Assembly (NCBI RefSeq): GCF_047663525.1
Contig: NC_092612.1
Location: 343,501 to 407,500, forward strand
Direction of reading: 5' to 3'
DNA: 64,000 bases
From: Anas platyrhynchos
Lineage: Eukaryota > Chordata > Aves > Anseriformes > Anatidae
The notes below the pieces were generated by a model that did no database searches, was not told the DNA's origin, and was given only the letters and a program-made list of their open reading frames with translations. Numbering within the stretch: position 1 is the first letter of the stretch; each line of letters begins with the position of its first letter. The translations under genes were made by a program, and so were the position numbers. Below, one piece after another: positions 35,483 through 62,361 of the stretch.

Positions 35483-38400
35483 CTACACCCAGATGTCGGA
35501 GGTGCAGTCCCCGCCGGGGTAGCGGATCTCGTGTGCCAGGCAGGGCCCGCCTGGCTCCTTCCCGAAATCCACCAAGAAGTTCTGGTTGACGGTCAGGCCG
35601 CCCTTCTCTGTGTCCACATCGAGCTGCAGCATGACAGAGCCGTCCCTGTGGAGGGGTGGGAGCGGGGTCAGGGGGGATCCTTGCCTCCCCCATCCCTGTG
35701 GCTGCCGAAATTCAGCCAGATTCCCCCACCTGATGAGCTGCGGGTAGAACTGCCGGTCCCAGGCGCTGTAGAGGGACGTGGTGACGTACAGCCGCTTCCC
35801 GTCCAGGCTGAGCTGGATCATCTGGGGCCCCCCAGACACCCTCCTGCCCTGCAGCAGGTGGAGGGGAGGACGAGGTGAGCAGGGGACGCCTCCACCTGCT
35901 TTGGGCCGGGCCGGAGGAGCAGAAGCACTGGGACCTGCTCCCCGGGCTTGCCCCCACCGCCCCGCGTGCCTGGAGGCTGAGGGCGGAGGTGGGACAGCAC
36001 GAAGCCAAGCTCACCTGGATGACAAAGGGCTCCGGCTGGCTCTGCAGCTCCTCATCCCCACACACGGTCACGGTCCCTCCCTTGGTGATGCTGCCACCCA
36101 CAAAGACCTGCAGGAGAGCGGAGCTCAGGGTGGCTGAGTTGGGGAAGCGGGGCTGCTCCCACCCCGAGCCGGGGCAGAAGTGGCGGGGCACGCCGGCGCT
36201 GCCTCACCTGTCCCACCAGCCTGGGCCTGCGGGTGTCGGAGATGTCGTACTGGCGGACGTCTCCGTGCAGCCAGTTGCTGAAGTAGAGGAACCTGTCGTC
36301 CAGCGAGATGAGGATGTCGGTGATGAAGCCTTGGGAAGGGGACAGCAGAGTTGTACACCTGTGGCAGCCCCGGGCAGGTGGCTGCACCGCGGCTGACGGG
36401 GACACACTCACTTGGCATGTCTGGGAGCAGCCACCCCTCCACCTTCTTGCTGGGGACTTGGATCACCTTCTCGGCCGCCCAGTCTCCTCGCTGTGGGACA
36501 AAGCACGGCCTGAGGGCTCGGTGCACAGGGCAGAGGCAGGATAAGGCCCGACCAGGGGCGGATGCCGCGTGCACGTCCACCAGCTCCCGTCTCTGGGGCT
36601 GCTTGGTGGGCTGCAGGAAACCTCATCTCTGGCTCTGAGGAGCCACCGCAAGGACGGGCTCTGGGGCATGAGGAAGGGTTTTGGGGGCCAAAAACCTGTC
36701 CGACCTTCCAGCTGGATTAACTGGTCTGGTGGCAGAGGTTCTCCTCACCCAGATTGTTTTTACACACAACAGACACCGAGAAGGAACATTGCTCGAGCTA
36801 TTGTAAATCCACAACAAAGGTATAAATAAACCTCCTCTGAATTAAATCACCTCAGCATAAACTACTGCCAGTCAGAACAGGTCCTCCGGTGAGATTGCCA
36901 CGTACCCAGCACCCCTGCCCGCCGCCCCTTGCCCTCCCGGGGCAGCGGTACCTCGGTCCTGTAGAAGCGGTGGATGGCGCTGCTGATGGTGCACCCCACG
37001 AAGCCCTCGGCGGCGTCCGGGTTGTGGAGGAAGCGGATCTCCAGGGGCGCCGCGTCCTCGCCCACGTCGATGGCCTGGACGTAGGTGTGAGTGGTCCAGT
37101 CCCACACGTTGAGGCGGCGTCCATAGCGCCCTGCGAGGGGGCAAGGGGGGGGCAGAAGGGACACTGTGAGGCACAGGGACTCCGGCCAAGGTGCCACGGC
37201 CCCAGGGGGGCTCAGCCCCACCTCAGTGCAGAGGCGGCCCCGTGGGCTCTGCACCAGCAGCAGTGGTCGCTTTTGGGGCTCTCTTTTGAGGCTTTGTAAA
37301 ATCAGTGTGACCTCTGGGAACTGGTGTGAAATCAGTTTTGCAAGCAAACTGTTTGGACAATCTTATCCGGGTCTGTTAGATGGTCAACGCTCACTCATGA
37401 CAGAGTTGAAATGGGGCTTCACTGCAGCCCTGCTCAGCATCTCGCTCCTGGAGTGCCTAAACAGAAGTTTCCTCACCTTTCTTCAGATCGTTTGGGTCAA
37501 ACCCATATCCCAGGCATTTCGGGACTCCCCATTCAGTGCTGATCAAGACATTGTGGCGTGGCTGGTACCAGAAGTCATAACCCATTGGGGGGCTCTTTTC
37601 CCCCTTCTCCCAGTTCCCCTTGATCTCAAAGGTCTCTCCATCTAGCAGAATAAAGCCACCTGAAGCAAAAACAAACATGCACTGGCGGTGAGGAAATCAC
37701 CCGGATTACCCCTTGGAGTGCTGTAAGACAAACAGCAATAGGCAGATCAAGGCGTTGCAGACCAGCCTGGTGGAGGCTCCAGGACAGCGCTGGATGCCAG
37801 CGCTGCTCCTCCTGTCCTGGCACCCTCTCCCGGGGCACTGGCAAGACCCATACCTTTCCCATTGCCGGCTGGGTCTCCCAGGGTGCTGATCATGATTTCA
37901 CCGCTGCCCAGGCAGTGGGAGGTGTGGGGGTAGCCCAGGTTACACTTCCAGAAGACGTCCTCTGGGTTGACAACCTGCGGGAGTTCACAGGCTCCGTCAC
38001 CTCCCCTGTGCGGGCGAGATGGTGCCTGCTGCACAGGGGTGCAGGGGGCTGGTGCGACCACGGACGGGTGGGAGCTGCCCCACTGTCCTGCTGCACATGC
38101 TGAGCAGGCGAGCCAGCACGTGGCACCACCTCCAGGTTACCTTAAAAAGCCTGGGAGCTCGCGGGTCGGTTCCTACATCCACCACGTAGATGCGGGAGGA
38201 GATCAGGCTGGGGAGGATCAGGCGGTTCCTCTTCTTGGTGGTGTCCCCGAAGCAGCTGCTGCAGGTGTTCCAGCCGGAGTGGTGCAGCTCGTCCCCCAGG
38301 TTGGGCATAGGCAGGCGGTGGATCACCTGCAAAGGGCCATTCCTGCTCACACCGGGACGCAGGACTCCAATGGATCGGACCCGGGAGCTCAGAGCATTGC

Positions 38401-41400
38401 AGACTGCCATGGATGGGGTCAGGAAGCCTCAGGCAAGCCTAACTCTGCAGCTGGGGTGTGCTGGTGCACAAGGGAGCCCAAGGATGGTACACGAAGGGGG
38501 TTTTCCTTACATCTCCTAAGCTCAGGAAGGCTCAGAGTCTGAGGACGAGCTGGGTAGGCACCAGCCTTCGGTACCGGGCCCGCAGCTTTGGGGAATGTGA
38601 GGGAGGGCTTGCACTGAGCTGTTTCCCTTGGCTGGTGTGCGGCCACCAGCTTAGCACAGAGATGAGGCGCTCGGTACCTGGCAATAGTTTGGAGATTTGG
38701 GATTGACATCCACAGTGGCCAGAAAGTCAGGTTTGTTCCTGCCGGTGTTCCTGTAGATGCAGGGCACGTATAATATCTCCTCCCGGGGCCCTTTCAAGAC
38801 AGAAATGTTGCACGAGCGTCAGCAGGAAGCACTGGGCAGAATGAACACCCTGCAGGAGTCTCTGGCTGGATCGGGCTGCCCTGTGGGGCAGTGGGATCTC
38901 CCATCCCTGCTCAGACATGCCAACCCCACCAGTCACACAAAACAAACCACTCTGTGTCTCATCTCCATCACAGGAGAAGCCTTGAAAATACATGAGAAGC
39001 ACAAAGGCAAAATGCTTGCAGGGCTGAGGCCAAGGGCACAATTCCCCCATGCCTCCATGAGGCTCAAAGGTGCCGCCAAGGTCTGCTGGCTCCCAGGCAC
39101 AGTGGGGCGAGCGTGGTGCTGGGATGGCTGCACCCACGGACCCCAGGCCTCCAGCAGCAGCAGCACCCCGACCCTGCAGCCTCCTCGCAGCCGCAGGGGT
39201 GGTACGGGCGCTGCACCGTGTCAGAAAGTGCTGCCAAAGCAAAGCAGGAGGAAGAACAGGTCTGAGAAATGCTGAGGAAGAGGAGGTGGGGACAGGGAGA
39301 GGTGACCTGGGACCTGTCACTGATCCAAAGCAGACAACAGCCGCCTTTTCAACATGACACCTTTATGAGCTTTCGTAACAGTGGTGTCTGCATCGGCCTT
39401 GGGTTCGAGGGCAGCTGCCAGGCACCCAGGGACCCCATCCCTGCAGCTGCCAGGGAACCAAAAGCCAGGGTTCAGGGCACAGGCAGAGCGCAGAGCCTAA
39501 TTCACCTCCCCAGGCATCCCAAGGAGCTTTTCATCACCTGCCTGTGAGCCTGACCAGCTTGATGTCCACATTGAAGAGATTTTTGGTGCCAGGGTTACTC
39601 AGCAACCAGACAGAACCTGGGTATCAAAAGTCCCGAGGGAATCTGCTGGAGTAGCAGAGTCAGTGGGATTTATGTTTACTATTAACTCAAATCACCATCC
39701 AGCCCTGCCAACATCCAGGCATGTTTTAAAGACTCAGCTCTTCACTGGTGTTTGCTTTGTTCAAAGATGTTTCAGGGACAGGAATCACAGACCAGGATCA
39801 AGCTCCAGAGCTGTCTAAGGTTTCAAAGATGTGCTTGCTAAGCACTGGAGAGGAGGATTAAGGGAAGGATAGCAGCAGTCAATGCTTTCATCGGTCCCTT
39901 CACATGAGAGCACTAGTGTTTTGGCAATGCGAACAAAAGGCAAAGTGCCTGAGCAAGCAGCCTGCAAGCCTGTGAGGCTGGTTTTCGCTACAGGAGGCTC
40001 TGTCCTGTCAGAATGCAAGCCATCAGGAGCAGAGCGTGGTGCTGTGTTCCTGAGGGTGCCTGGAAAAAAAGAAAGAGGAAGGGTGCTCCCTTCTTCCCCA
40101 GCCTTCTCTACTCCCTGGAAATCCAAGAGCATTGAGCTCCCAGCAGTGGTGTCATGGGCCTATATGGTGTGGTTGCCTCTGAGAAAATTAAATCCCATTT
40201 GGTTTTGAACAGTGAAGCCACGGGTGACTTTGATGCAAGTTATGACCCATCCCAAGCCACTATGAAGCCTAAGAAGGTTTGTTCTGAGACCAAGCTGTCA
40301 TTATGCAATTGGAGTTTGGCCCTGGGACAGGCCAGATGCAAAACTTTCACTTCTTTGCTTCCCCAATGCTTGCTGGGGAGCCTCTTTGGCGGATGGAGTT
40401 AATTGATAACGCCTCTTTGAAGGCATTATTCTAATCTTTACCTAAATCACAGACAGCACAGGGCTCTTCCCTGAGAGCCCTGGATTTTGGACTTGCCTTT
40501 CATCGCATCCAGAGGAGAGGCGAAGCCAGGGCCACACGCTCCACACCTTTCTGAATCGAGAAGAACAGAAACAAACAGCAATTAGATCACAGAATCAGAA
40601 TGGTTTGGGTTGGAAGGGACCTTAAAGATCACCTAATATTCCCCCCTCCCGCCACGGGCAGGGACACCTCCCCCAAACCAGGCTGCCCAAAGCCCCATTC
40701 AGCTGGCCTTGGGCCCCCCCAGGGATGGGGCACCCACAGCTTCTCTCAGCAATTTGCTCCAGTGCCTCAGCACCCTCGGAGTAAAGAATTTCTTCCTGAT
40801 ATCTGAGCCAAACCTGCCCTCTTCTGCTTCAAGCTGCTATCCCGATGTCCCCACTGCACTCCCTGACAGAGTCTCTCCCCAGCTTTCCTGTAGCCCCCTT
40901 TAGGGACTGGCAGGCTGCTCTGAGTCTCCCCGGAGCCTTCTCTTCTCCAGGCTCAGCACCCCCAGCTCCCTCAGCCTGCCTCCATAGGAGAGGTGCCATA
41001 CAAATCTAGTGCAGAAAGCTACGGGGCTCAAAGCTGCTTCTCTCCACTCTGCTCCCCTCTGCAGTGCCTTGCCCGGGGGTGTGAGTGCTGAGCTTCCCAC
41101 ACGAAGCCCCTGCTCCCACAGCATTTAGGGCTGGAGACATCAGCCAGCCCCAGCCCTGTCCTGCTGCTGGTCTCTGGGTGCTTCGAACCCATCCAGCCTC
41201 ACCCTCCAACAGACTTCAAAACAGTCAAGGAAAGCGCCCTTAGTGCAGGGGGACGAGAGCTTGTTAGGAAACAACCACCACCTCCAAAAGGATCCCTTTT
41301 CCCCATTTATGATGGCAAGCCTGAGGAGAGGGAGGAAACCTGCAGCTAAACTCTACTACTCAGCTTTGCTGACTCGGTTTCTTGTTTGTTTTTTAAGGTT

Positions 41401-42006
41401 TTCTCCTGCAGTCCCTGAGGACATCACGTTCTGCAGAGAGCACAGGACACCAGCATGCAGGTCCCTGCTCCTACCTGAAGCACTGTGGAACCACCATGCT
41501 GCCTTTCTTCCCCCTTCCCCTCATATTAGCCCTGCAGGAAAAGCCCCATTAAACCCAAACTTTGCACTGAGGACTCCCTGTCATGGTATGGCTGATTGTA
41601 ACGAGCACAGTGTGTTGCAGGTGAATATAATGGGAATAAATTAAATAAAAATAGTTAGAAGGCATTTAATTATCAATCTGCCTAAACACTTTCTGGCACT
41701 TATAGTAGCTTGAAAAAAAAAACACTCTCCTGGCAGAGAAGACACCACGCTCATCCCCACACGTCTTTCTACTTTATGCTGTCCGGGTGTCACAGTAATA
41801 AACCCTCAAGACCCAGCTCAGGATAAGTTTTGGAGGCTCCAGAGCTGAGCCCACAGCCAGTAGGCAGCCGGCCACCAAACAGCCCCAAGCCTGCTCCTCT
41901 TGAGAGCAAGCTGCAGCCAAGCGAGAGATCTCTTACCGGTGCTGGAGGTCGTGCTGGAGGGTTTCACCTGCTGGTGAGAAGCAGAAGGAGGTGATGCTGC
42001 CTGCAT
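35483..42006 (-). CDS. SELENBP1: Selenium-binding protein 1 / methanethiol oxidase, copy A (conserved orthologue)
   Basis: SBP56-family beta-propeller enzyme oxidising methanethiol to H2S, formaldehyde and H2O2 (known for human SELENBP1). Exons: 42006-41937, 40550-40497, 38790-38678, 38326-38141, 37974-37854, 37659-37477, 37130-36952, 36490-36412, 36329-36208, 36107-36015, 35848-35730, 35645-35483; 1482 nt, 493 residues. Conserved motifs: CGACGPG, SPNYCQ (Cys78, equivalent to human Cys57), [11 protein letters not shown] (Cys101/Cys104), HTSHC (158-162), [48 protein letters not shown]. The first exon gives about 22 extra N-terminal residues rich in Ser/Pro/Gln compared with human (472 aa); this exon is the least certain part. 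The intron after 40497 starts with GC (gcaagt) rather than GT. Confidence 0.95.
38791..40496 (-). other. Intron 2 of SELENBP1 copy A
   Basis: About 1.7 kb with a GC donor at its 5' end (40496) and an acceptor reading ttgaaag at 38791. No additional exon or recognised repeat is seen. Confidence 0.75.
40588..41190 (-). mobile_element. CR1 LINE 3' fragment
   Basis: The plus strand begins atcacagaatcagaatggtt and continues ttgggttggaagggaccttaaag, the reverse complement of a CR1 3' end. Further in are the CR1-typical gtaaagaatttcttcctgat and gagccttctcttctccagg blocks. About 600 bases lie in intron 1 of SELENBP1 copy A in the same orientation as the gene. Confidence 0.9.
41191..41936 (-). other. 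Remainder of intron 1 of SELENBP1 copy A
   Basis: Unique intronic sequence; AT-rich at 41630-41720. No exon or element is recognised. Confidence 0.65.
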
Positions 42007-42056
42007 GCTGCCTGGTAGGAGCCAGTCGAGTGAGGAGACGCAGCTCTGCAGGGTTC

Positions 42057-42065
42057 AAATATATA
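42057..42065 (-). promoter_or_regulatory. TATA box of SELENBP1 copy A
   Basis: Minus-strand TATATATTT about 50 bases upstream of the proposed copy A ATG. Transcription would start near 42030, leaving a leader of about 25 nt. This supports the assignment of the first exon at 42006-41937. Confidence 0.6.
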
Positions 42066-42820
42066 GGGAGTGGGATGGGGAGCAGCACGGTGTGAAAAGG
42101 ACACCAAGGGGAGGATCCACATGCCCCGGGGTGTGGGAGGTACTGGGGCAGCCTTCAGCGTCTTTCAGCACTGGGATCGTGCAGGGAAGCTATTTCAGAG
42201 CTACCAGAATCTCCTCCCTTCCCACGGGGAAGAGGACATGGCTGTGGCTGCGCTCTGTAGTACATATGTTCTTGTGAAATTCAAAACAAGGGCTTTTAGC
42301 CACAGAGAGAAAGCAGGCAGCTCCTCTCCTCTGATTCTCTGCTAGAAGCACTGTCCTGAGTTTCCCCATGGGGCGCCCCTCATGAGAGATGGGCAAGTGC
42401 TTGCATTTCCAACCACAGAAATAATTTTACGAGGTTGCAGATGTTAATCACTAGGAAAAATGAAAAATGAGGACTGGGTTTCTTTTAATTGCAGGACGAA
42501 TGTTTACTGTGGGATGTTAATTTGCAGGCTGGAAGGAGGGCAGGAGCAGAGTAACAGTTTTCCCCATGACACATCTAACTTAGTCAGTGTCTGCTGCTGC
42601 TTCTGGCTGCAAAGCTGAGTGTCTGCAGGCTCGGTCTCACGGGCAGTGCAGCAGGCTCTCAGCCTCTACAGGCACATCTTTAGCAGCAAGTTGCTGCCCT
42701 GTCCCTGCCAGTGCTCACCCCAGGTGCAGACCAGAAAATCAGCAAGCTCTAACACTAATTCCCTCTCTCATGGAAGGCTGCTGGCCCACAGCTCCTGAGA
42801 ACTGGCACCAAAAGGTGGTC
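42066..42820. other. Spacer between SELENBP1 copies A and B
   Basis: About 750 bases upstream of the copy A TATA box and before the left edge of the B duplication unit. No gene, RNA or recognised transposon. It is the likely upstream regulatory region of copy A. Confidence 0.6.
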
Positions 42821-42940
42821 CAGTGATCTTGTAGAAGTGATTTCCCAGATGTCAACCTTATCATTAACCACTGCTGAAAACATTATAGAAAGGTTCAATG
42901 AAATAAGACACGTGAAGATCTAGGTGATGCAAAGAACAAT

Positions 42941-42946
42941 TTTATT
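42941..42946 (-). terminator. Polyadenylation signal of SELENBP1-like copy B
   Basis: AATAAA on the minus strand about 220 nt after the copy B stop. It is conserved in copy C at 55947-55952. Confidence 0.7.
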
Positions 42947-43163
42947 TGTCTTTAAAGCAGAACACGAGCAAACCAGTGTCAGGAAACAGGCACCTCTTTT
43001 CAGATTAAAGCACTACTCACTCCTTTGGCTGTAATACAATACTGACCCAAGCATGCCACAAGCAAGCCTCAAATGCTCTTGCACCAAAGAAAAACTGTCC
43101 AGGAATCACCTGGATGAAGAACAGCAACTCAGATCAGCGAGAAGGGAGGCTAGGCGATGGCGT

Positions 43164-46100
43164 CTAGGCCAAGATGTCGGAGGTGGAATCTCCGCAAGGG
43201 AAGCGGATAGAACGGGCAAGGCAAGGCCCATTGGGTTCCTTTCCGAAATCCACCAGGAAGTTCTTGTTCACCGTCAGGCCTCCTTTCTCAGTGTCCACAT
43301 CAATCTGCAGCATGACAGAGCCTTCCCTGCAGGGGGGCGAGAGAGCAGGCATTACAGACAAGCACGCGGGGCCCTTCCTGCCCTTCATGAGGTGGAGGCA
43401 TTCTCCCTGACATCTTGTCTTCTCCGCAGAGAAGACAGCAGAGGCCCACTCCCAGCAGTGGCTAACACCAGCACCCATGGCTCCGTGCTGAATTCTCACC
43501 GGAGGCGAGTAAACCACCAGGCATGATGTGACAGACAGGCTGGAGCTTGCCTTTGTGTTGGAGGTCATCGTTACTGAACGAAAACGCCTCTGGTGGAGCA
43601 GAGCTGTGGCCTGGCTCTGAGAGACCCACAGATGGACTCACTCCACCTGCAAGGCCGATCAACGTACGCGCTCCCAAGCCAAGCCCTGCCACTGCAGCTC
43701 CACACAGGGAGCAGGTTCAGAGGTGCACGGGAGACAATTGCGTGTGCAATTCAACAAGAGCAAGCACAGCAACCGCAAGGGATTCCTCGCAGTCCCCTGG
43801 GTGAGGCACCTTCCCCACTTCTAGCACTGAGGCCTTGCAAAAGAGGCCCCTTTCCTCCCCCAGATTTCTTACCTGACCACGTTCGGGTAGAACTGCTTGT
43901 CCCACGTGCTGTAGAAGGAGTTGGTGACGTACAGCCTCTTGCCATCCAAGCTGAGCTGCATCTTACAAGGGCCACCGTACACCCTCTTGCACTGGAGGCA
44001 CAACAGAGAGCAGGGATGTCAGGGCCTCTTTCTCTCAGCAGACAAGCAAAAGCAGAGGCAGCAGAGCAGAGAAGCAGAGCACAATGGCTGCCTCCCCTCC
44101 TAACACAGCTCACCTTGATCACCAAGGGCTCCGGCTGGCACTTCAGCTCTTCATCTCTACACACAGTCACGGGCCCGCCTCTGAGGATGCTGCCTCCCAC
44201 AAACACCTGGAAGCAAGGCAGTGGGAGATGTGTGGCTTGTCTTGTAACCACCACCAGGTACTGATAAGGAAGCAACGCTGCAAGCCCCTCTGCCCGTCCT
44301 TACCTGTCCCACCAGCCTGGGCTTGCAGGTTTTGGAGATGTCATACTGGCGGATGTCTCCGTGCAGCCAGTTGCTGAGATACAGGTATTTGTCATCCAAG
44401 GAGATGACCATGTCGGCTGTGAAGGCTAGGGCACAGAAAAAAGAACTCTGGAGGAGGCGGCGTCAGCAGAAAACTCAGCCCCTCTGGCTCGGCGTGCATT
44501 GGGTTTACAGGGCACAGCCGCTGGGCTTTGCCAGGCTGCACAATGCAACGCTCCGAGAGGAAAAGGGCAACTCCACCTCAGGGCTCACCAACCTGGCATC
44601 TTGCAGAGAATCCATCCCGACACCTCCTTGGCTGGTATCTGAATCGCCTCCTCTACTGACCAGGTATCTCTCTGCAAAGGAGCACAAACACTGTGCCGTG
44701 GGCATTCCTGGCTGCTCAGGACAGAGCCCTCCCCTGCGCTCGCCCGCTTGCACAGCCAGGCAAATCATAGAATCATAGGATATCTCGAGCTGGAAGGGAC
44801 CCCTAAGGATCACTGAGTCCAACTCCTGGCACCGCACAGCTCTCCCCAAACTTTTAGAGCATGTGCCTAAGCGCACAGTCCAATCGCTTCTTAAATTCAG
44901 AGAGTCTGTGTGCAGTGCCTGGGTTTCTGGTGGCTGCGGGCAGAATACTTGCCTCACAACAAGCCTTGTAGAAGCGGTAGATGATGCCACTCAGGGCACA
45001 GCTGACATAGCCCTCAGCAGCATCGGGGTTGTGGAGGAACTTAACGCTCAAGGGCAACGAGTCCTCCCCCAGGTCAAAGCACTGGGTCAGGGTGCGGCAG
45101 GACAAGTTCCACACGTTCAGGCGGCGCCCAAAGACCCCTGAGGAAGAGGAAAGGCGAGAGTCAGGAGAGGGCAGGGGAGCTACGGAGATCGCTCACACCT
45201 AAAGACGCTCCCTGGCAGGGACAGCCACGGCAGCGGCTACCCAGGATTAGCAGCAGCAAAATGCAGTGGCTTTGGGAGCAGAGGGAGAGAACAGGAACCA
45301 GCCTGTCTTGAGGAGAGACGATGAGCGTCCTGGGGCAGTGCCCGTAAAATGGGCCATTTTGGGACAACTCCGCCTGCCCCCTCTCCCCGGTTCTGGACCG
45401 TTCAGCAACCGCATCAACATCCTCCCATGAGCCTGGTCAGTTCTGGCTCAGTGCTTGCATCCCCATTCTCACCTTTCTTCAAATCATCAGGATTAAATCC
45501 ACGCCCCGCACGTTTTGGAACCAGTCCGGCAGAGCTGATGAGAACGTTGTGGCGGGGCTGATACCAGAAGTCATAGCCAGTTGGGGGGGCCTCGCACTCG
45601 TTTTCCCAGTTACCTTTCAGCTCAAAGGTCTCTCCATCCAGCACAATAAATCCTCCTGTGATGCAAGAGGGCATGCACAACAGATCGAATACTCATCTTT
45701 CCAACCAGTCATGTTGTTCATGGTCTTATTGTAGGGAAAAGTACCTTTTCCATTGCCAGCTGGATCTCCCATGTTGGCAATCAGTATATCACCATTAGGC
45801 AGGCTATGAACTATACTAAGGTGACCCTTGTTGCACTTCCAGAAGACATCCACTGGCTCAATCATCTGGAAAAAGAGGACACACAGATGTAAGCCTCATT
45901 TCACACTATATAGCAGAGTCTTTGCCATCTGAGGTTTCTGGCGTTCACAGGAGTTTTCTTTCGAAGAAATCACACCTGCTAGGCCTTGCTCATCCTTGGA
46001 AAGAAGCGAAGAAGCCACTGAGCTCTCCTTTACAAGGACAACATGAATGCAGCAACTCGCAAGAGCTTGTTTGCCCACCTTACTCTTTGGGATGGGGGCC

Positions 46101-48143
46101 AGGCATGGGGTGCTACATGGCTTCCAGTTACTAGACACTCCCTGAATGCAACAGGCACAGGGAAGGCAAGAAAATGGGGATGGAAGCCTCCCCTCAGCCT
46201 GAGAAGGAGAAAGCCGAGGGGGAAGCATGACCCAGGTCTCTAAAATCAGGGGGAAGAAAAGAAGAGGAGGAGAACCTTCTTCCCTGTGCATTATTCCAGA
46301 AGCACCAGTTCCCAAGTCCTTCCCAGAAAGTTGCCTTTGAATCAGCTCAGGCATACCTTACAGAGCTTGGGAGCCCGGCACTGTGAACCCACATCCACCA
46401 CGTAAATACGGGAAGAAATCAAACAGGGGAGAATCAGCTTGTTCCTTTTTGTTGTGATATTGTCAAAGCAGACGCAGCCAGCGCTCCAGCCTGAGGAATG
46501 CAGCTCGTCTTTGAGGTTGGGCATGGGCAGGCGGTGGATCACCTAGGCAGTCAAAGGCAAAGTTAGGGTTCAGTCAGGGAGGCAGGGACAAAAGGGGACA
46601 TTAATGCATCCAACAACTTAGAGGTGATAATACTGTCCCCTGCACCAAAGAAGATCTGGGGAAAGGTCATTTCAAAGAAGAAGAGTGGATGTAGAGAATC
46701 TGCCTAGTATCTTTCAGAGACAGATAATTGCTGATTTCCCATTCAGCATGACATCAGACTGCTTGGTTCAGTGCCTTATAGCATCTCTGAAATTGCAGTA
46801 CAATAGAAACATGCTGGAAGCGCTGGATACTCTCATCCTCCTGGGTCACTAGGGACTATTTTCCCTGTTGAACAGTCATAGGCAGGAGATTCAAACCAGA
46901 AGTTGAATAGCAGCACAAAGATGCTCTGGAAATGAGTTGGGACACAGAGATGCAGAAGATTCAGCTAGAGTCAGGCACACGGGACAGCAGAATAGAGTAC
47001 ATGTTGTGAAGCATGGAGTAAACGTCTGGTCATCACTGCAAATAAAGCGGTGTAGGCACAGGTACCTGGCAGTAATACGGAGATCTGGGGTTGAGATCAA
47101 CAGTGGCCAAGAAGTCAGGTTGGTTGGTGCATGTTTCTCGGTAAGTACAGGTCACATATGCAAGCTCCTCTCTAGGAGCTAGGTATATGGAAAACTTGTG
47201 TTACAATGTGCCATGAAATGAGAGTAAGGGTAAATAAAAAACTTCAGCAGACTCTCAGATAAGACTAAGCTACGCTTTCTGCAGCTACAACCTTCCTCCT
47301 TGGTCAATGACAACTGCCCAGCCCTGGCTCACTCCTGGCCCAGAGCTGAGAACACAACACAAGCAGATCACTGCACAGCTCCAGTTTTCTCCCACCGAGG
47401 GAAGGGACTCAGCACATGCAATTAATTAACGGTGGTCTTTAAAAGACGCAGGCTTTGTCATCATCCAGTCTGAAGCTAACACCCCCCTTTCACAAATGCC
47501 CCCCTTTCCAAACATTCCCGAGAGGACTTGCCTTTCACAACGTCTGGGCAGACGGGGTAGTCGTAGCACTGAAGTTTGCATCTGTCTGAATTGAGAAGAA
47601 GAGAAGAATGAAAGGAGAAACATCCACATCCCTAAATGGTGCCAGTTCAAAAGGCTCCATCCCACCCAGTGGACCTTCGCCCACCCTCGTCATCAGTGGG
47701 GACCTCTGACCAGCATCTACTTGAGTAGATTTAGACTAGATATAAGGCAGAAATTCTTCACTATGAGGGCTGTGAGGCACTGGCACAGGTTGCCCAGAGC
47801 AGCTGTGGATGCCCCATCCCTGAAGCGCTCAAGGCCAGGTTGGATGAAGCCTTGAGCAAGCTGGTGTGGTGGGAGGTGTCCCTGCCCAAGGCAGGGGGGC
47901 TGGGATGAGCAAAGCTAAGCCCCTGGAAGCAGACCAGTAGCAAGATGAAAGAAACCCTTGTGTCCCAGGCTTCAGTCCCACCTTCCAGCAGCGCAGCAGA
48001 GCAACAAAGCTGCCAGTCCACAAGTGGGACTCGGCTTCAAGGTGGGATGTCTGCAGCCCCAGGCAGAGGCTGGAGCCAGGGCCAGGACGGAGCGAGAGGG
48101 CATGGAGCTGCTGTGGGGAGGCTGCAGAGCGTTTCTTACCCAT
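43164..48143 (-). CDS. SELENBP1-like (methanethiol oxidase-like) paralogue, copy B
   Basis: SBP56-family paralogue. Exons: 48143-48140 (ATGG only), 47585-47532, 47178-47066, 46542-46357, 45865-45745, 45655-45473, 45137-44953, 44671-44593, 44425-44304, 44206-44114, 43991-43873, 43326-43164; 1422 nt, 473 residues. The fold signatures [31 protein letters not shown] and [10 protein letters not shown] are retained. Several Cys/His motifs differ from copy [15 protein letters not shown] at the N-terminus, [12 protein letters not shown] instead of [19 protein letters not shown] instead of YPHTSHC, SSAG instead of STEW, and [18 protein letters not shown] at the end. Cys56 (human Cys57) is kept. The introns after exons 2 and 7 begin with GC. 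Every exon keeps the copy A length except exon 7 (+6 nt), so there is no sign of decay. The enzymatic activity is uncertain. Confidence 0.9.
44764..44905 (-). mobile_element. CR1 fragment in intron 7 of copy B
   Basis: Reverse-complement CR1 3' end beginning catagaatcataggatatc and continuing agctggaagggacccctaag and gagtccaactcctggc. It is also present in copy C, so it predates the duplication. Confidence 0.8.
47722..47905 (+). mobile_element. CR1 fragment in intron 1 of copy B
   Basis: CR1-like block: gcagaaattcttcactatga, caggttgcccagagcagctg, ccatccctgaagcgctcaag. It is in plus orientation, opposite to the gene, and 5'- and 3'-truncated. The same insertion occurs in copy C at about 61817-62000. 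Confidence 0.8.
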
Positions 48144-48259
48144 GCTGAAGGCCTTCTGGTTCACTGTCCTCAAGAGCAGAGGTGCTGGGGCTGGAGGAGC
48201 AGCTTGCTGTCTGCCTTGCTGGAGTGGGTCGTGTAGTGCCAGGGCTGCTCGGAGGGCCC

Positions 48260-48266
48260 TTATATA
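48260..48266 (-). promoter_or_regulatory. TATA box of copy B
   Basis: Minus-strand TATATAA about 120 bases upstream of the copy B ATG. The predicted transcription start is near 48235, giving a leader of about 90 nt before the 4-base coding part of exon 1. It is identical in copy C. Confidence 0.75.
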
Positions 48267-48269
48267 CAC

Positions 48270-51419: not shown

Positions 51420-52600
51420 CTGATTATAAGCAGCTGCCAGTCTGTCTTGCTGATGTTATGAAGCAGATCTTGGCTGGCCAATTTATACTCACAGAGTGAG
51501 GCCCAATTCGTTTTTGTCTTTTCTACCTGAACTTCAGTGGGGCCTGACATTTCACCAGCAGCAAGGTACACAGAAATCGCAGCCAATGTGTGGAATGAGT
51601 GGTCCCCATGTTCCAACTCTACCAGCAGCAGTGAACATGAAATAGAGAGGATAAAGAAGACGATTTTTGAAGCAGATTGATATATGCTCACCTGAAACCT
51701 TCCTGTGCATGAGGAAAAATGTATAGCAAATGTGAAACTGCACTGCTGATGGAAAGGAAGGTGACAACAGGAGGTCACCTCACTGGCACTTGCCTGTTAT
51801 TTGCAGATATAAGCCAATGGAGGAACAATATATTTTAAGCTACAGTGGTTCAAGTTGTTGGATAAAGTCTCTGCTGAAAAAAGACACTTTATGTCCTTCT
51901 CTAACCTGAGAACGCAGAAATAAATATGTGCTTTTCCTTGAATTGCTACAACCTGATATCAGATGTGCTGTCTTCAGGAGAGAAGCTCCTATCATGAGCG
52001 TGCAAGGCTCATTGAGTTCCTTCTAAAATCCAACCATCTACTCTGAAAAAGAAAAAAAAAGCTGGTATTATGGACAAAGGAACTGTGTTCTAATATAAGT
52101 GTCTCTCACATTTTGCAATTCTTTCTGTATCTAGGTTAAGATCTCGTTTTTAATGACTTGCATTTTAAGTGACTAGGGATGGGTCCCAGTTCCATATTTG
52201 CCTACACAAGCATTGAGGGGTAATCCAAAAATCCTTTTCCTTGTATCTTCTTCCAAAAGCTCCAGATCCCATCTACTTCCCAGAAGCATGCCACCTCAGG
52301 CATAGTGTGCACAGCTTGGAGCCCATAAGTTTGTTCTCATATCCGTGACATAAAATCAGGAAAAAAGATTAAACTCAGAAGTATCAGTTTGTTCTTTTTC
52401 CCTGATGACACATCATCAAAACATGTGATGCTTCCATTCCATCCTGAAGTGATGACGCTCATCTTTCAGGTTGGACAGGCAGTGGATCACATAGCCAAAG
52501 GCAAAAATATTTCACTCAGAGAAGCAGAGAAAAAAAGGGACCTTAATGCAAGCAGTCACTTAGGCCTTGCTGCTGCTGGGACTGCCTATAGGGATGCCGT
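51420..52600 (-). pseudogene. Decayed SELENBP1-like fragment (exon 4 region, probably also exon 6)
   Basis: Sequence at about 52308-52495 aligns with SELENBP1 exon 4: plus-strand agcttggagccc, gtatcagtttgttctttttc, tcatctttcaggttgg and gcagtggatcacatagcc match positions in copies B and C. Intron homology continues on both sides (cttcccagaagcat; aaaaagggaccttaatgcaa). A second weaker match at about 51440-51540 resembles exon 6 (ttgctgatgttatgaagcag; gaggcccaattcgttttt). Indels and substitutions destroy the frame and the splice sites, and exons 7-12 are not found. It is a relic of another cluster member. Confidence 0.7.
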
Positions 52601-52794
52601 GAGGGTAGTACTGGCCTTGATGCTGCTTTTTGGTAGCACATCTCTGGCTGGGACAGGTGGAGAGATCAAAGCTGAAGTCCGACATTCTTTCAGGAACTGG
52701 ATTACACAGCCCATGCCAATGAATGCCTTAAAAACATTTACCTAAAAAAAATAAGATAGCTGAAAATGTTCCTTTTGAAGACAGAGATAAGAGT

Positions 52795-52918
52795 CTGCTA
52801 GTGCTCTCAAGACTGCATTGACACTGGATCTAGGCCAGGTTGATGGTTGGACTTGACGATCTTGAAAGTCTTTTCCAACATAATGATTCTACGAGTCTGA
52901 ATCTATGATTCTATGAAA
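52795..52918 (+). mobile_element. CR1 LINE 3' end
   Basis: CR1-type 3' terminus, with gatggttggacttgacgatc and aagtcttttccaacataatg followed by the octamer-like tail gattctatgaaaag. The element is strongly 5'-truncated. Confidence 0.85.
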
Positions 52919-54744: not shown

Positions 54745-55160
54745 CATCTTCCTTAAGAGGAAAGGCTGAGGGAGCAGGGTCTCTTTAGCTTGGGGAAGAG
54801 GAGACCGAGGGGTGACCTTATTAATGCTTATAAATATGTAAAGGGGGAGTGTCAGGAGGACGGGGCCAGGCTCTTCTCGGTGACACCCCATGACAGGACA
54901 AGGAGCAATGGGTACAAGCTGGAACATAGGAGGTTCTGCTTAAATGCGAGGCAAAACTTTTTTTTTAGAGTGAGGTCGACAGAACATGGAACAGGCTGCC
55001 CAGGGTTTGTGTGGAGTCTCCTTCTCTGGAGATATTTGAGACCTGTTTGGATGCCTACCTGGGCAACCAGTTCTAGGGAATGTGCTTTGGCAGGAGGGTT
55101 GGACCTGATGATCTCTTGAGGTCCCTTCCAACCCCTCTCCAATTCTGTGATTCTGCGAAT
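54745..55160 (+). mobile_element. CR1 LINE 3' fragment
   Basis: About 415 bases in plus orientation with characteristic CR1 blocks: gaggagaccgaggggtgacc, acaggctgcccagggtttgt, gagacctgtttggatgccta, gatctcttgaggtcccttcc. It ends in an octamer-like attctgtgattctgcgaatg. Confidence 0.92.
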
Positions 55161-55946
55161 GGGGATGGGGCCTGGCCCGTCCCAAGGGCAGGTCTCCAGA
55201 GCAGATTCACCTCACCTGGCCTGCAGCCTGGCACAGGGTGCCTGCTGCCCAGACCCTCCCTGCAGCCGATGGAGAGGAGGCGGCGCCTCTGGAGAGACCC
55301 GGGCTTGGCAGGGGTCTGAAGGAAGGGGAGAGCTCATTCCAGAGCCACCCCACCAGCAGGGACATCACCTGAAAGGCTCCTCTGATAGGGAAGCTCTGCA
55401 GGACCTCAGCAAGGGGTCACGCACTCACAAGCGATTGTGGGGCTGAAGAGCAGTACCCCAGGGATGCTTCCCACCCAAGGTTCACCACTGCAACTTGGGC
55501 CCTCATCTAGCCTCATCCTCTCTGCTCCGTGGGGAGAGGAAACCCCCTATCCCTTCCACAAAGGGCAATTCCTTCCAGACTTCTTGGACACCTCATTCAG
55601 GAAGCTATGGAAGCAATCTCCAGAAAGGCTGGATTTTCTCTAGGACCAATAAGGGTGCACAGAAGAACCCAGCAATAAGTTTGCTGATGGAAGGGGTGAA
55701 GGAAGGAAATGAAGTTACTCTTCCAATGTAGATAAGTAAAAAGCTAAAATTTGTAATGATCCACAATATATTGACATTTTTGCAACCTTTGCATCTCACA
55801 GAGACAAACAGGCACTCTTGCACTATCGGTGACTATGTAGAGGTGATTTCCCAAACATCAACCTTATCATTAGCCACTGCTGAAAACATTATAGAAAGGT
55901 TCAATGAAATAAGACACGTGAAGATCTAGGTGATGCAAAGAACAAT

Positions 55947-55952
55947 TTTATT
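55947..55952 (-). terminator. Polyadenylation signal of copy C
   Basis: AATAAA on the minus strand, about 710 nt after the copy C stop. The distance is about 490 nt longer than in copy B because of the C-specific segment at about 56135-56630. Confidence 0.6.
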
Positions 55953-56134
55953 TGTGTTTAAAGCAGAACACAAGAGCAGACCAGTGTCAGGAAACAGGCA
56001 CCTCTTTTCAGATTAAAGCACTACTCGCTCCTTTGGCTGTAATACAATACTGACCCAAGCATGCCACAAGCAAGCCTCAAGTGCTCTTGCACCAGGGAAA
56101 GACTGTCCAGGAATGACCTGGATGAAGAACAGCA

Positions 56135-56630
56135 ATTCGGACAAAATGGATGGTTTGCCTTCTTTGCCCTTCATTTCCAAGTGTGAATGAGCTCTGAATC
56201 ATAACAGAGTTCAACAACTTCCCACCAGGCCCTGCTACGCCACAGCAATTGCTATCAGGCTAGGGCCAGCAAGAAAGGTGCCCAACAGGTCCTCAGCAAT
56301 GACAAACAGCACGGTGGGTATGCAGACATCTGTGAAATGGTGCTGTGCATACTGCAAATCTCTACACGATAAGTAGCAAGCACCCTTAACCCTGCTCTGT
56401 GAAGCGTGCCCAGGGGTTTCTTTGCACTGAAACCAAAGGCAGACACACGGTGCCACAAGGTGAATGCCATGCCATGTGTCTGTGCTCACCACTGGTGTGC
56501 CCGAACCAAAGCCTCCAACAGGACAGCTGAGCTGTAGCTCACATTAGCAGAAACCTAGATTCCAGCAATGAATGGGGACCCCCAGACCCAATTACCCTAC
56601 ACTCTGTTTTAACAGCTGCACCGAAGACTA
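56135..56630. other. 491-bp segment present in unit C but not in unit B
   Basis: The alignment offset between the units jumps from 13006 to 13497 here. The segment lies in the predicted 3' UTR of copy C. It has no obvious target-site duplication, poly-A tail or CR1 motif. It may be an insertion in C or, just as well, a deletion in B. Confidence 0.8.
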
Positions 56631-56660
56631 GAGAGAAGAAGGGAGTCTAGGCAATGGCGT

Positions 56661-59600
56661 CTAGGCCAAGATGTCGGAGGTGGAATCTCCACAAGGGAAG
56701 CGGATAGAATGGGCAAGGCAAGGCCCATTGGGTTCCTTTCCGAAATCCACCAGGAAGTTCTTGTTCACCGTCAGGCCTCCTTTCTCAGTGTCCACATCAA
56801 TCTGCAGCATGACAGAGCCTTCCCTGCAGGGGGGCGAGAGAGCAGGCATTACAGACAAGCACGCGGGGCCCTTCCTGCCCTTCATGAGGTGGAGGCATTC
56901 TCCCTGACATCTTGTCTTCTCCACAGAGAAGACAGCAGAGGCCCACTCCTAGCAGTGGCTAACACCAGCACCCATGGCTCCGTGCTGAATTCTCACCGGA
57001 GGCGAGTAAACCACCAGGCATGATGTGACAGACAGGCTGGAGCTTGCCTTTGTGTTGGAGGTCATCGTTACTGAACGAAAACGCCTCTGGTGGAGCAGAG
57101 CCGTGGCCTGGCTCTGAGAGACCCACAGATGGACTCACTCCACCTGCAAGGCCGATCAACGTACGCGCTCCCAAGCCAAGCCCTGCCACTGCAGCTCCAC
57201 ACAGGGAGCAGGTTCAGAGGTGCACGGGAGACAATTGCGTGTGCAATTCAACAAGAGCAAGCACAGCAACCGCAAGGGATTCCTCGCAGTCCCCTGGGTG
57301 AGGCACCTTCCCCACTTCTAGCACTGAGGCCTTGCAAAAGAGGCCCCTTTCCTCCCCCAGATTTCTTACCTGACCACGTTCGGGTAGAACTGCTTGTCCC
57401 ACGTGCTGTAGAAGGAGTTGGTGACGTACAGCCTCTTGCCATCCAAGCTGAGCTGCATCTTACAAGGGCCACCGTACACCCTCTTGCACTGGAGGCACAA
57501 CAGAGAGCAGGGATGTCAGGGCCTCTTTCTCTCAGCAGACAAGCAAAAGCAGAGGCAGCAGAGCAGAGAAGCAGAGCACAATGGCTGCCTCCCCTCCTAA
57601 CACAGCTCACCTTGATCACCAAGGGCTCCGGCTGGCACTTCAGCTCTTCATCTCTACACACAGTCACGGGCCCGCCTCTGAGGATGCTGCCTCCCACAAA
57701 CACCTGGAAGCAAGGCAGTGGGAGATGTGTGGCTTGTCTTGTAACCACCACCAGGTACTGATAAGGAAGCAACGCTGCAAGCCCCTCTGCCCGTCCTTAC
57801 CTGTCCCACCAGCCTGGGCTTGCAGGTTTTGGAGATGTCATACTGGCGGATGTCTCCGTGCAGCCAGTTGCTGAGATACAGGTATTTGTCATCCAAGGAG
57901 ATGACCATGTCGGCTGTGAAGGCTAGGGCACAGAAAAAAGAACTCTGGAGGAGGCGGCGTCAGCAGAAAACTCAGCCCCTCTGGCATGGCATGCATTGGG
58001 TTTACAGGGCACGGCCGCTGGGCTTTGCCAGGCTGCACAACGCAGCGCTCCGAGAGGAAAAGGGCAACTCCACCTCAGGGCTCACCAACCTGGCATCTTG
58101 CAGAGAATCCATCCCGACACCTCCTTGGCTGGTATCTGAATCGCCTCCTCTACTGACCAGGTATCTCTCTGCAAAGGAGCACAAACACCGTGCCGTGGGC
58201 ATTCCTGGCTGCTCAGGACAGAGCCCTCCCCTGCGCTCGCCCGCTTGCACAGCCAGGCAAATCATAGAATCATAGGATATCTCGAGCTGGAAGGGACCCC
58301 TAAGGATCACTGAGTCCAACTCCTGGCACCGCACAGCTCTCCCCAAACTTTTAGAGCATGTGCCTAAGCGCACAGTCCAATCGCTTCTTAAATTCAGAGA
58401 GTCTGTGTGCAGTGCCTGGGTTTCTGGTGGCTGCGGGCAGAATACTTGCCTCACAACAAGCCTTGTAGAAGCGGTAGATGATGCCACTCAGGGCACAGCT
58501 GACATAGCCCTCAGCAGCATCGGGGTTGTGGAGGAACTTAACGCTCAAGGGCAACGAGTCCTCCCCCAGGTCAAAGCACTGGGTCAGGGTGCGGCAGGAC
58601 AAGTTCCACACGTTCAGGCGGCGCCCAAAGACCCCTGAGGAAGAGGAAAGGCGAGAGTCAGGAGAGGGCAGGGGAGCTACGGAGATCGCTCACACCTAAA
58701 GACGCTCCCTGGCAGGGACAGCCACGGCAGCGGCTACCCAGGATTAGCAGCAGCAAAATGCAGTGACTTTGGGAACAGAGGGAGAGAACAGGAACCAGCC
58801 TGTCTTGAGGAGAGACGATGAGCGTCCTGGGGCAGTGCCCGTAAAATGGGCCATTTTGGGACAACTCCGCCTGCCCCCTCTCCCCGGTTCTGGACCGTTC
58901 AGCAACCGCATCAACATCCTCCCATGAGCCTGGTCAGTTCTGGCTCAGTGCTTGCATCCCCATTCTCACCTTTCTTCAAATCATCAGGATTAAATCCACG
59001 CCCCGCACGTTTTGGAACCAGTCCGGCAGAGCTGATGAGAACGTTGTGGCGGGGCTGGTACCAGAAGTCATAGCCAGTTGGGGGGGCCTCGCACTCGTTT
59101 TCCCAGTTACCTTTCAGCTCAAAGGTCTCTCCATCCAGCACAATAAATCCTCCTGTGATGCAAGAGGGCATGCACAACAGATCGAATACTCATCTTTCCA
59201 ACCAGTCATGTTGTTCATGGTCTTATTGTAGGGAAAAATACCTTTTCCATTGCCAGCTGGATCTCCCATGTTGGCAATCAGTATATCACCATTAGGCAGG
59301 CTATGAGGTACACTGAGGTATCCCTTGTTGCACTTCCAGAAGACATCCACTGGCTCAATCATCTGAAAGAAGTGTATACACGAGTAAGTCTGACTGATCT
59401 GCTCATTTCACACTACATGGCAGAGCAGAGTCTTTGCCATCTGAGGTTTCTGGTGTTCACAGGAGTTTTCTTTCGAAGAAATCACACCTGCTAGGCCTTG
59501 CTCATCCTTGGAAAGAAGCGAAGAAGCCACTGAGCTCTCCTTTACAAGGACAACATGAATGCAGCAACTCGCAAGAGCTTGTTTGCCCACCTTACTCTTT

Positions 59601-62238
59601 GGGATGGGGGCCAGGCATGGGGTGCTACATGGCTTCCAGTTATTAGACACTCCCTGAATGCAACAGGCACAGGGAAGGCAAGAAAATGGGGGTGGAAGCC
59701 TCCCCTCAGCCTGAGAAGGAGAAAGCCGAGGGGGAAGCATGACCCAGGTCTCTAAAATCAGGGGGAAGAAAAGAAGAGGAGGAGAACCTTCTTCCCTGTG
59801 CATTATTCCAGAAGCACCAGTTCCCAAGTCCTTCCCAGAAAGTTGCCTTTGAATCAGCTCAGGCATACCTTACAGAGCTTGGGAGCCCGGCACTGTGAAC
59901 CCACATCCACCACGTAAATACGGGAAGAAATCAAACAGGGGAGAATCAGCTTGTTCCTTTTTGTTGTGATATTGTCAAAGCAGACGCAGCCGGCGCCCCA
60001 CCCTGAGGAATGCAGCTCGTCTTTGAGGTTGGGCATGGGCAGGCGGTGGATCACCTAGGCAGTCAAAGGCAAAGTTAGGGTTCAGTCAGGGAGGCAGGGA
60101 CAAAAGGGGACATTAATACAGGCAGATACTTCTATCTTTGTAGCCTCCATGTGACTAGAGCTGGGAATGCCTCTAGAGACGCAGAAAGGAGAACATTGCT
60201 CCTTACACTAGCCATTGCCCTTTGACAGGTGACTGTGTGCAGCTGGGAAATGTGGAGATATCAAAGATTCATTCAAGAATTCCTCACCCCATGCCACTAA
60301 AATTCAGAAAATTACATATGAAGAAATGATGATTATCATCTTGACATGTCAGGTGATTCACTCTGGAAGCTTCTCCGAACACTGGACTCTCAGAAGTCTG
60401 TATTTTCTTTAAAGTGCATTTGCTCCTAATCTCTTGCACTAACGGAGTAATCAGGTAATATATATACAACCCTGATGTAGACAATATGCCTAGTATTTAC
60501 TTGTTTCTGAAGGATTTCGCGTTTAGGATGACAGCAGACAGGTTGGTTCAGAGCATTCTGAAATTGCAGTACAGTAGAAAAAAGATGAAATCTGCAAAAG
60601 TGCAGGATACCCTAAACCATCTGGGTTACTAGTGAACATATTCCCTGCTGAGCAGCCACTGGCAGGGTGATTCAGAGCATGTGCTCAAAAGTTCACTAGT
60701 AGCACCAAGATGCTATGGAAATGAGTTGGGAAGTGAATCCCTACTGGCTTGTCCCCTGAGACAAAGAGATGCTGATGATTCAACTGGAGCCAGGTACACA
60801 GGGGACAGCAGAAAAGCAGCAGGGAGTTAACATTCATAGCAGACAACATCCCAGGCTGGTGTGTATCACCAGTGGAGAAGCAAGAAATAGGCCTGTCATG
60901 GCAAAATTATTGGTTGCCCAGACAGTCATGAAGAGGACATGAAAAACAAATAGGAAGCAGGATAAAAGAATCAACCAAGAGACAGAAATGAAAATGTGGA
61001 AAGACAAGAAGGTGCAAGGCATAAAAAAAAAACAACAAGCATGACAGAGTGGCTGGAAAGCACTCTGAATTTCCATAGCAGAAAAGAGTAAACGGCATGA
61101 ATCAGGAAGCACAAAGACAGCAGCTAGTCATCAGCTCAGTAGAAACAGTCTAGGCACAGGTACCTGGCCGTAATACGGAGATCTGGGGTTGAGATCAACA
61201 GTGGCCAAGAAGTCAGGTTGGTCGATGCAAGTTTCTCGGTAAGTACAGGTCACATAAGCAACCTCTTCCCTAGGAGCTTCAAATAAAGAAAACTTGTGTT
61301 ACAAAGAGACATAAAATGTCCATAAAAGAAAAAAAAAGTTTCAGCAGACTCAGATAAGACTAAGCTACGCTTTCTGCAGCTACAACCTTCCTCCTTGGTC
61401 AATGACAACTGCCCAGCCCTGGCTCACTCCTGGCCCAGAGCTGAGAACACAACACAAGCAGATCACTGCACAGCTCCAGTTTTCTCCCACCAAGGGAAGG
61501 GACTCAGCACATGCAATTAATTAACGGTGGTCTCTAAAAGACTCAGGCTTTGTCATCATCCAGTCTGAAGCTAACACCCCCCTTTCACAAATGCCCCCCT
61601 TTCCAAACATTCCCGAGAGGACTTGCCTTTCACAACGTCCGGGCAGACGGGGTAGTCGTAGCACTGAAGTTTGCATCTGTCTGAATTGAGAAGGAGAGAA
61701 GAATGAAAGGAGAAACGTCCACGTCCTTAAATGGTGCCAGTTCAAAAGGCTCCATCCCACCCAGTGGACCTTCGCCCACCCTCGTCATCAGTGGGGACCT
61801 CTGACCAGCATCTACTTGCGTAGATTTAGACTAGATATAAGGCAGAAATTCTTCACTATGAGGGCTGTGAGGCACTGGCACAGGTTGCCCAGAGCAGCTG
61901 TGGATGCCCCATCCCTGAAGCGCTCAAGGCCAGGTTGGATGAAGCCTTGAGCAAGCTGGTGTGGTGGGAGGTGTCCCTGCCCAAGGCAGGGGGGCTGGGA
62001 TGAGCAAAGCTAAGCCCCTGGAAGCAGACCAGTAGCAAGATGAAAGAAACCCTTGTGTCCCAGGCTTCAGTCCCACCTTCCAGCAGCGCAGCAGAGCAAC
62101 AAAGCTGCCAGTCCACAAGTGGGACTCGGCTTCAAGGTGGGATGTCTGCAGCCCCAGGCAGAGGCTGGAGCCAGGGCCAGGACGGAGCGAGAGGGCATGG
62201 AGCTGCTGTGGGGAGGCTGCAGAGCGTTTCTTACCCAT
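56661..62238 (-). CDS. SELENBP1-like (methanethiol oxidase-like) paralogue, copy C
   Basis: Exons: 62238-62235, 61680-61627, 61276-61164, 60054-59869, 59362-59242, 59152-58970, 58634-58450, 58168-58090, 57922-57801, 57703-57611, 57488-57370, 56823-56661; 473 residues, identical exon sizes to copy B. The protein differs from B at few positions. In exon 3, REEVAY replaces REELAY, CIDQ replaces CTNQ, and SPYYGQ replaces SPYYCQ, so Gly56 stands where human SELENBP1 has Cys57. In exon 4, SGWG replaces SGWS. In exon 5, YLSVPH replaces HLSIVH. In the last exon, LAHS replaces LARS, keeping the family histidine. The GC donors after exons 2 and 7 are shared with B. The frame is open throughout and splice sites are intact, so it is probably expressed. 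Function is unproven. Confidence 0.9.
58261..58402 (-). mobile_element. CR1 fragment in intron 7 of copy C
   Basis: Same insertion as at 44764-44905 in copy B, at the same intronic site, so it is an ancestral insertion duplicated with the unit. Confidence 0.8.
61817..62000 (+). mobile_element. CR1 fragment in intron 1 of copy C
   Basis: Same insertion as at 47722-47905 in copy B, nearly identical in sequence. Confidence 0.8.
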
Positions 62239-62354
62239 GCTGAAGGCCTTCTGGTTCACTGTCCTCAAGAGCAGAGGTGCTGGGGCTGGAGGAGCAGCTT
62301 GCTGTCTGCCTTGCTGGAGTGGGTCGTGTAGTGCCAGGGCTGCTCGGAGGGCCC

Positions 62355-62361
62355 TTATATA
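62355..62361 (-). promoter_or_regulatory. TATA box of copy C
   Basis: Minus-strand TATATAA about 120 bases upstream of the copy C ATG, identical in context to copy B. The two promoters should respond alike. Confidence 0.75.

Follow-up and report, generated by a model that had tools for sequence, protein, structure and literature searches.

In the 64,000-nucleotide stretch of Anas platyrhynchos DNA analysed here (the window, bases 343501-407500 of the 6.1-Mb contig C26), three complete genes of the SBP56 family (PF05694), which includes human SELENBP1, nematode SEMO-1 and bacterial methanethiol oxidase (MTO), are located on the minus strand. MTO oxidises methanethiol, with H2S, H2O2 and formaldehyde as products. 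A PF05694 profile search of the whole genome (1.26 Gb, 42 contigs) gave 35 matches, and 35 of 35 were found at C26:378986-431104 on the minus strand. The cluster consists of five 12-exon genes: A, B and C inside the window, and D (C26:414259-419836; its protein is the same as that of C) and E (C26:423688-436213; canonical type) outside it, past the right edge. A preliminary description of this DNA had counted three complete 12-exon genes and a relic; this is correct for the window, in which the relic is one degenerate exon 4, but not for the cluster, which holds five genes. The span that it had singled out is exact at both ends, 35483 being the final base of the stop codon of A and 62238 the A of the ATG of C.

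Gene models were built with a spliced protein-to-DNA aligner (GT/GC-AG introns), and the first exons were completed from the sequence. Proteins of 493 (A), 473 (B, C and D, each) and 471 (E) amino acid residues were deduced, and the full-length SBP56 domain was recognised in A, B and C with the scores given in Table 1 (cut-off, 34 bits). The identity to the human SELENBP1 sequence was 73% for A, 75% for E and 60% for B. Each of the genes A-E has 12 exons with common splice phases and without frameshifts or internal stops; human SELENBP1 has the same number of exons. Exon 1 of B, C, D and E consists of four coding bases, ATGG, ahead of a GTAAGA donor; exon 2 is 54 bases long with a GC donor in each of A-E; and the B type (B, C and D) has 2 extra codons and a GC donor in exon 7 (window 44953 in B, 58450 in C). 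An alternative exon 2 for C and B (window 62888 and 48793, respectively; TGCGTCGPGF in C) was dropped because of its poor splice sites and its place ahead of exon 1; the chosen exon matches those of A and E in length (54 nt) and GC donor. GC-AG introns (AG/GCAAGT) are therefore kept at exon 2 in A-E, and a second one occurs at exon 7 only in the B type, alongside the 2-codon insertion.

Table 1. Features of the SBP56 locus in the window; exons are given from high to low coordinates
Feature	Position in window	Strand	Basis and remarks
Copy A, canonical-type SBP56, 493 amino acids, 13 Cys, 6/6 copper-site residues	35483..42006	-	Spliced alignment, full model; Pfam 743 bits
Copy A exons	42006-41937, 40550-40497, 38790-38678, 38326-38141, 37974-37854, 37659-37477, 37130-36952, 36490-36412, 36329-36208, 36107-36015, 35848-35730, 35645-35486	-	Stop TAG 35485-35483
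Copy B, divergent Cys-rich paralogue, 473 amino acids, 26 Cys; H74S, H137S, E252S, H457R	43164..48143	-	Spliced alignment; Pfam 580 bits
Copy B exons	48143-48140, 47585-47532, 47178-47066, 46542-46357, 45865-45745, 45655-45473, 45137-44953 (GC donor), 44671-44593, 44425-44304, 44206-44114, 43991-43873, 43326-43167	-	Stop TAG
Copy C, divergent Cys-rich paralogue, 473 amino acids, 25 Cys; H74S, H137S, E252S	56661..62238	-	Spliced alignment; Pfam 580 bits
Copy C exons	62238-62235, 61680-61627, 61276-61164, 60054-59869, 59362-59242, 59152-58970, 58634-58450 (GC donor), 58168-58090, 57922-57801, 57703-57611, 57488-57370, 56823-56664	-	Stop TAG
TATA-like element TATATATT, 59 bp upstream of the ATG of A	42058..42065	-	Sequence, promoter alignment
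TATA box TATATAAG, 123 bp upstream of the ATG of B	48259..48266	-	Sequence; promoter alignment with A and E
TATA box TATATAAG, 123 bp upstream of the ATG of C	62354..62361	-	Sequence
SBP56 exon 4 relic with in-frame stop	about 52310..52490	-	tblastn/blastn
RFX DNA-binding domain exon (probably RFX5)	31749..31868	-	PF02257 profile search

The proximal promoters can still be aligned between A and B (score 83; maximum of 100 shuffles, 43), between B and E (58; maximum of 200 shuffles, 36) and between A and E (49; maximum of 100 shuffles, 37). A TATA element was found at the aligned place in A, B and C and none in E. In A, the ancestral ATGG start has become ACCG (C26:385437-385440), and an in-frame upstream ATG, from which translation appears to begin, adds 23 residues; exon 1 of this gene was deduced from the aligned donor and promoter. 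The N-terminal extension (exon 1, window 41937-42006) is rich in Ser, Thr, Gln and Pro and precedes the CGAC motif. The intact reading frames, exon phases and promoters described previously were thus confirmed, in that the 12 exons are without stop or frameshift and the promoters of A, B and E align above the shuffles. Features by which a pseudogene would be recognised were absent from B and C, in which 12 intact exons, start, stop, TATA box and an AATAAA within 1.2 kb were found.

According to PMC10362175, the MTO activity of human SELENBP1 was strongly suppressed by mutation of H73, H74, H137, H140, D189 or E252, each singly (His to Phe, Asp to Asn, Glu to Gln), and the copper content was lowered in H137F, H140F, D189N and E252Q only. 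All six residues (human numbering) are kept in A and E; three of the six (H73, H140 and D189) are kept in B, C and D, with H74S, H137S and E252S. B has H457R in addition, at the counterpart of 2ECE residue H445, which belongs to a cluster of five invariant His (PMC10277263). In total, 7 His are present in B and in C, 15 in E and 12 in A. Changes were also found in the motifs of B and C: CGxC has become CKLQC, CSSC has become CVC, STEW has become SSAG and GGDC has become CGDS, and HTSHC reads SIVHS in B and SVPHS in C. In the study of animal SBP1, HxxHC was present in all sequences except the outgroup and CSSC in nearly all (PMC10277263); both motifs were found in A and E, and neither in B or C.

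These changes were placed in an alignment of 16 bacterial SBP56 proteins from a genome scan (L032 and L033 partial) with A, B, C, E and the human sequence. At least 12 bacterial rows were filled in 422 columns, of which 103 were at least 90% conserved and common to human and E; 5 of these 103 are changed in A and 25 in B or C. With B and C set aside, 77 columns are invariant; B/C keep 59 of these and are changed at 18, including C141, E203 and W204. No bacterial row present deviates at C141 or at the Glu-Trp of STEW, both of which are lost in B/C. The losses at the copper site (3/6, vs about 1 in 4 at other conserved columns) are too few to claim enrichment. The earlier statements that A keeps the Cys/His residues of the family (here 6/6 copper-site residues, HxxHC and CSSC) and that B and C are altered at CGxC, CSSC (to CxC), HTSHC, STEW and GGDC agree with the models in every named change; the losses of E252 and H74 and the cysteine enrichment come on top of these. 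Of the altered metal, thiol or selenium chemistry suggested there, a metal and thiol change is predicted, as three of the six experimentally required residues are gone.

The whole proteins contain 13 (A), 26 (B), 25 (C), 25 (D) and 10 (E) Cys, human SELENBP1 10, and the aligned domain of the 16 bacterial relatives 2-9. The number in the B type is therefore more than double that of E and of the human protein, and slightly less than double that of A. In a codon model, 13 Cys gains and 4 losses were assigned to the branch leading to B/C among 119 amino-acid changes, and 2 further Cys lie in the 2-codon insertion. When this stem was simulated, 3.5 gains were expected, the maximum was 11, and 0 of 5000 simulations reached 13; among the 20 target residues, Cys, which was picked for testing after the data were seen, was the most over-represented (3.6 times). 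A second analysis was run under five settings of the codon frequencies, with the remaining parameters fixed as first fitted; in four of the five, at least 11 gains (the lowest posterior count) had a P of 0.001-0.009. The gained Cys were also mapped on an AlphaFold2 model of the bacterial relative L019 (mean predicted local distance difference test score, 82.7), which gives the predicted secondary structure of one homologue and not that of B. Twelve of the 13 were mappable, and 9 of these 12 fell in loops vs 192 of 423 columns (P 0.036).

A GY94 branch model (451 codons; genes A, B, C and E) gave ratios of nonsynonymous to synonymous substitution (omega) of 0.08 for the background, 0.50 for the stem to B/C and 0.30 for the B and C tips. 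A separate stem ratio was preferred over a single ratio (p 3e-9), the tips were below 1 (p 0.01), and tips and stem could not be distinguished (p 0.35). No stop was observed vs about 11 expected on a neutral stem of about equal synonymous length (lowest value in 401 simulations, 2); B, C and D are one lineage and were counted as one event. Synonymous divergence (dS) was about 1.0 between A and B and about 0.03 between B and C; therefore, the B type is old and its copies are young. In a tree of 19 rows (the partial L032 and L033 left out), A with B/C was favoured (79/97, below the tool's star), and the grouping of A with E, or of E with B/C, was rejected at p 0.025. E with human (p 0.36) and A+E+human (p 0.39) were not rejected, so that duplication before or after the mammal-bird split fits. 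The term lineage-expanded used in the preliminary description thus applies to the recent copies B, C and D (98-100% identical) but not to the B-type lineage itself. Of the neofunctionalisation rather than decay read there, intact divergence rather than decay is favoured by the absence of stops, by the tips and by the promoters, which still align. The omega of the stem, however, fell short of a clear difference from 1 (p 0.056); the dN/dS comparison among A, B and C that had been suggested separated the tips from 1 but neither the stem from 1 nor the tips from the stem.

Based on these results, it is probable that B, C and D are intact, functional genes whose products, to judge from their sequences, would lack the ancestral oxidase activity; we place this no higher because the B and C tips are indistinguishable from the stem. 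A more specific proposal, to which we give an even chance as a whole, is that they were co-opted as cysteine-rich, catalytically crippled proteins, disulphide-linked or redox-buffering in the cornifying epidermis. The sequence of the seven-bladed propeller would have been kept and copper-dependent thiol oxidase activity given up, and cysteines would have been added, mostly in loops. The product would be an oxidation-sensitive Cys-rich protein, disulphide cross-linked or thiol-buffering, in the cornifying epidermal cells of feather, scale and claw, with E and A retaining the oxidase function beside it. This proposal starts from what was observed, namely the intact genes, the loss of required residues, the excess of Cys gains, the shift in selection, the promoter with its TATA box and the position on a contig that also bears a large beta-keratin cluster; transcription, loss of activity, cross-linking and tissue are inferred from there. 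The tissue is assigned by analogy and from one co-expression statement: in PMC10517255, the methanethiol-oxidase-like chicken gene LOC425662 shares its expression in embryonic skin with the Cys-rich uricase and keratins. Canonical SELENBP1 has been recorded, as one peptide, in hair shafts of humans (PMC5065217), and polar bear fur has yielded methanethiol oxidase (PMC11166976); therefore, the ancestral protein can occur in cornified tissue.

Several points weigh against this proposal. The omega of the stem is not clearly below 1. As regards the copper site, H74F was without a drop in human copper content, and Ser, the state at H74, H137 and E252 in B/C, is not among the substitutions tried in the human protein (PMC10362175). 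Two of the four Cys lost on the stem are family-conserved (80 and 141); the reconstructed A/E/B ancestor had about 11-12 Cys and E then lost 5, so that a comparison with E only overstates the gain. The nulls of the second analysis (mean 3.7-6.9 gains, maximum 13-16) reach 13-16 gains by chance, and under the most generous setting, circular in that the codon frequencies are those of B/C themselves, the P of the Cys excess was 0.088. The SBP56 cluster is 1.7 Mb from the beta-keratins, so that its position is weak evidence for a skin role. The co-expression of LOC425662 bears on the B type only if that gene is of the B type, and in a feather data set it is placed under 'regulation of transcription' (PMC4594745), which misfits a methanethiol oxidase; the identifier is open to doubt, and one of the two mappings (PMC10517255, PMC4594745) may be wrong.

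B, C and D could instead be duplicates on which constraint has been relaxed and in which stops have yet to arise, recent amplification and gene conversion having helped to keep them intact. Constraint may have been relaxed for a time on the stem, because the stem is not clearly below 1 and the tips are indistinguishable from it; the change of 25 of the 103 family-conserved columns, the joint intactness of B, C and D as one event in one lineage and the identity of C and D over 9.2 kb also fit. Such duplicates would not be expected to show 0 stops vs about 11 on a neutral stem, an omega of 0.30 at the tips, and the retention of splice sites, start, TATA box and promoter. Moreover, the changes are biased to Cys beyond most of the mutation models tried, and chance gain through CpG decay (Arg to Cys) was rejected, with 1 of the 13 gains from Arg; we hold this explanation to be unlikely. 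A comparably low probability is given to the proteins still being enzymes or metal proteins of the liver or gut, not the skin, in which the new Cys and Ser would have rebuilt the site around H73, H140 and D189, either to hold a different metal or to work on a different thiol or selenium substrate. The three retained residues, the 59 of 77 columns left unchanged, the omega of the tips and the copper binding that was never lost completely in any single human mutant (PMC10362175) are in its favour; each of the three lost residues is individually needed in human SELENBP1 according to the same source, the Glu-Trp of STEW and C141 are gone as well, and 9 of the 12 mappable gained Cys would lie in loops scattered along the sequence.

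A side question is whether the assembly has inflated the copy number, with D as a false duplicate of C or of an allele. The C and D units show zero differences between C26:398093-407336 (9.2 kb) and the stretch 14098 bases on, and 39 of the 40 differing columns lie at 407337-408372, close to the end of the match; the units are not identical throughout, with 29 mismatches over 13.4 kb (99.70% identity). D may accordingly have arisen by very recent copying, may owe its identity to gene conversion or may in part reflect the assembly, and an artefact is, in our estimate, somewhat unlikely. B and C are distinct genes, with 98.5% identity across exons 4-12 (3.5 kb), 99.3% across exons 1-3 and beyond (9.4 kb) and indels of several hundred bases; from this divergence and these indels it follows that at least two B-type genes are real.

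The RFX DNA-binding exon beside the cluster suggests that the locus is probably the RFX5-SELENBP1 neighbourhood as in human, where RFX5 adjoins SELENBP1. The exon 4 relic of the window recurs between C and D, outside the window (tblastn/blastn). A 160-base element in inverted orientation, with 78% identity, was found in intron 1 of A (window 40644-40804) relative to B (intron 1, 47738-47899) and C (61833-61994); it is probably an interspersed repeat. Beta-keratins (PF02422) gave at least 150 matches (150 of 275 candidates scored) on C1, C2, C26 and C28, and a large cluster at 2.16-2.36 Mb of C26 was among the matches listed. Within C26:2180400-2250502, beta-keratin genes with identical or near-identical scores are spaced by 4,093-4,106 bases (one break), which represents a recent tandem array or an assembly effect.

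The B type resembles the SELENBP1/methanethiol oxidase proteins in its full-length SBP56 domain but differs from them in a Cys content about 2.5 times as high and in the loss of half of the six required residues, together with CSSC, HxxHC, the N-terminal CGxC and the Glu-Trp of STEW. Mouse Selenbp2 likewise arose by tandem duplication at the same locus; it is a close copy of Selenbp1 and is not known to have lost copper residues or to be enriched in Cys. The cysteine-rich urate oxidase (CRUOX) of birds and reptiles is, according to PMC10517255, a sauropsid metabolic enzyme with a much raised Cys content, an intact frame and a reduced original function, the last being predicted for B/C/D; its authors propose co-option in the skin, and an MTO-like gene is found in its co-expression cluster. 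CRUOX is an orthologue (two paralogues in turtles) with a nearly unchanged active site and about 1% efficiency, whereas B/C/D are tandem paralogues with a broken active site beside remaining canonical copies. The screen that found CRUOX took single-copy orthologues only (PMC10517255); therefore, a paralogue such as the B type would be missed. No account of B-type paralogues was found in a literature search with partial coverage of large result sets and subscription journals, and the terms SELENBP and methanethiol were absent from the main text of PMC11816140 (2025 skin-appendage protein review), PMC12821399 (egg tooth) and PMC11099144 (feather).

We tentatively suggest, at somewhat less than an even chance, that birds turned a copper thiol oxidase into a Cys-studded dead propeller of feathers or other cornified appendages, by tandem duplication and loss of the active site, as a second case beside the Cys-rich uricase. 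The B type is, in effect, a triple mutant of the SELENBP1 active site made by nature, and the label 'methanethiol oxidase' on a bird gene may name the wrong function. The B type may also account for the methanethiol-oxidase-like member of the feather keratin cluster. Should the B-type genes encode skin proteins, they would be an example of the recruitment of an enzyme to cornification, with a copy number (B, C and D) that is still changing, and sauropsids would repeatedly have obtained skin-appendage proteins by enriching redundant metabolic enzymes in cysteine.

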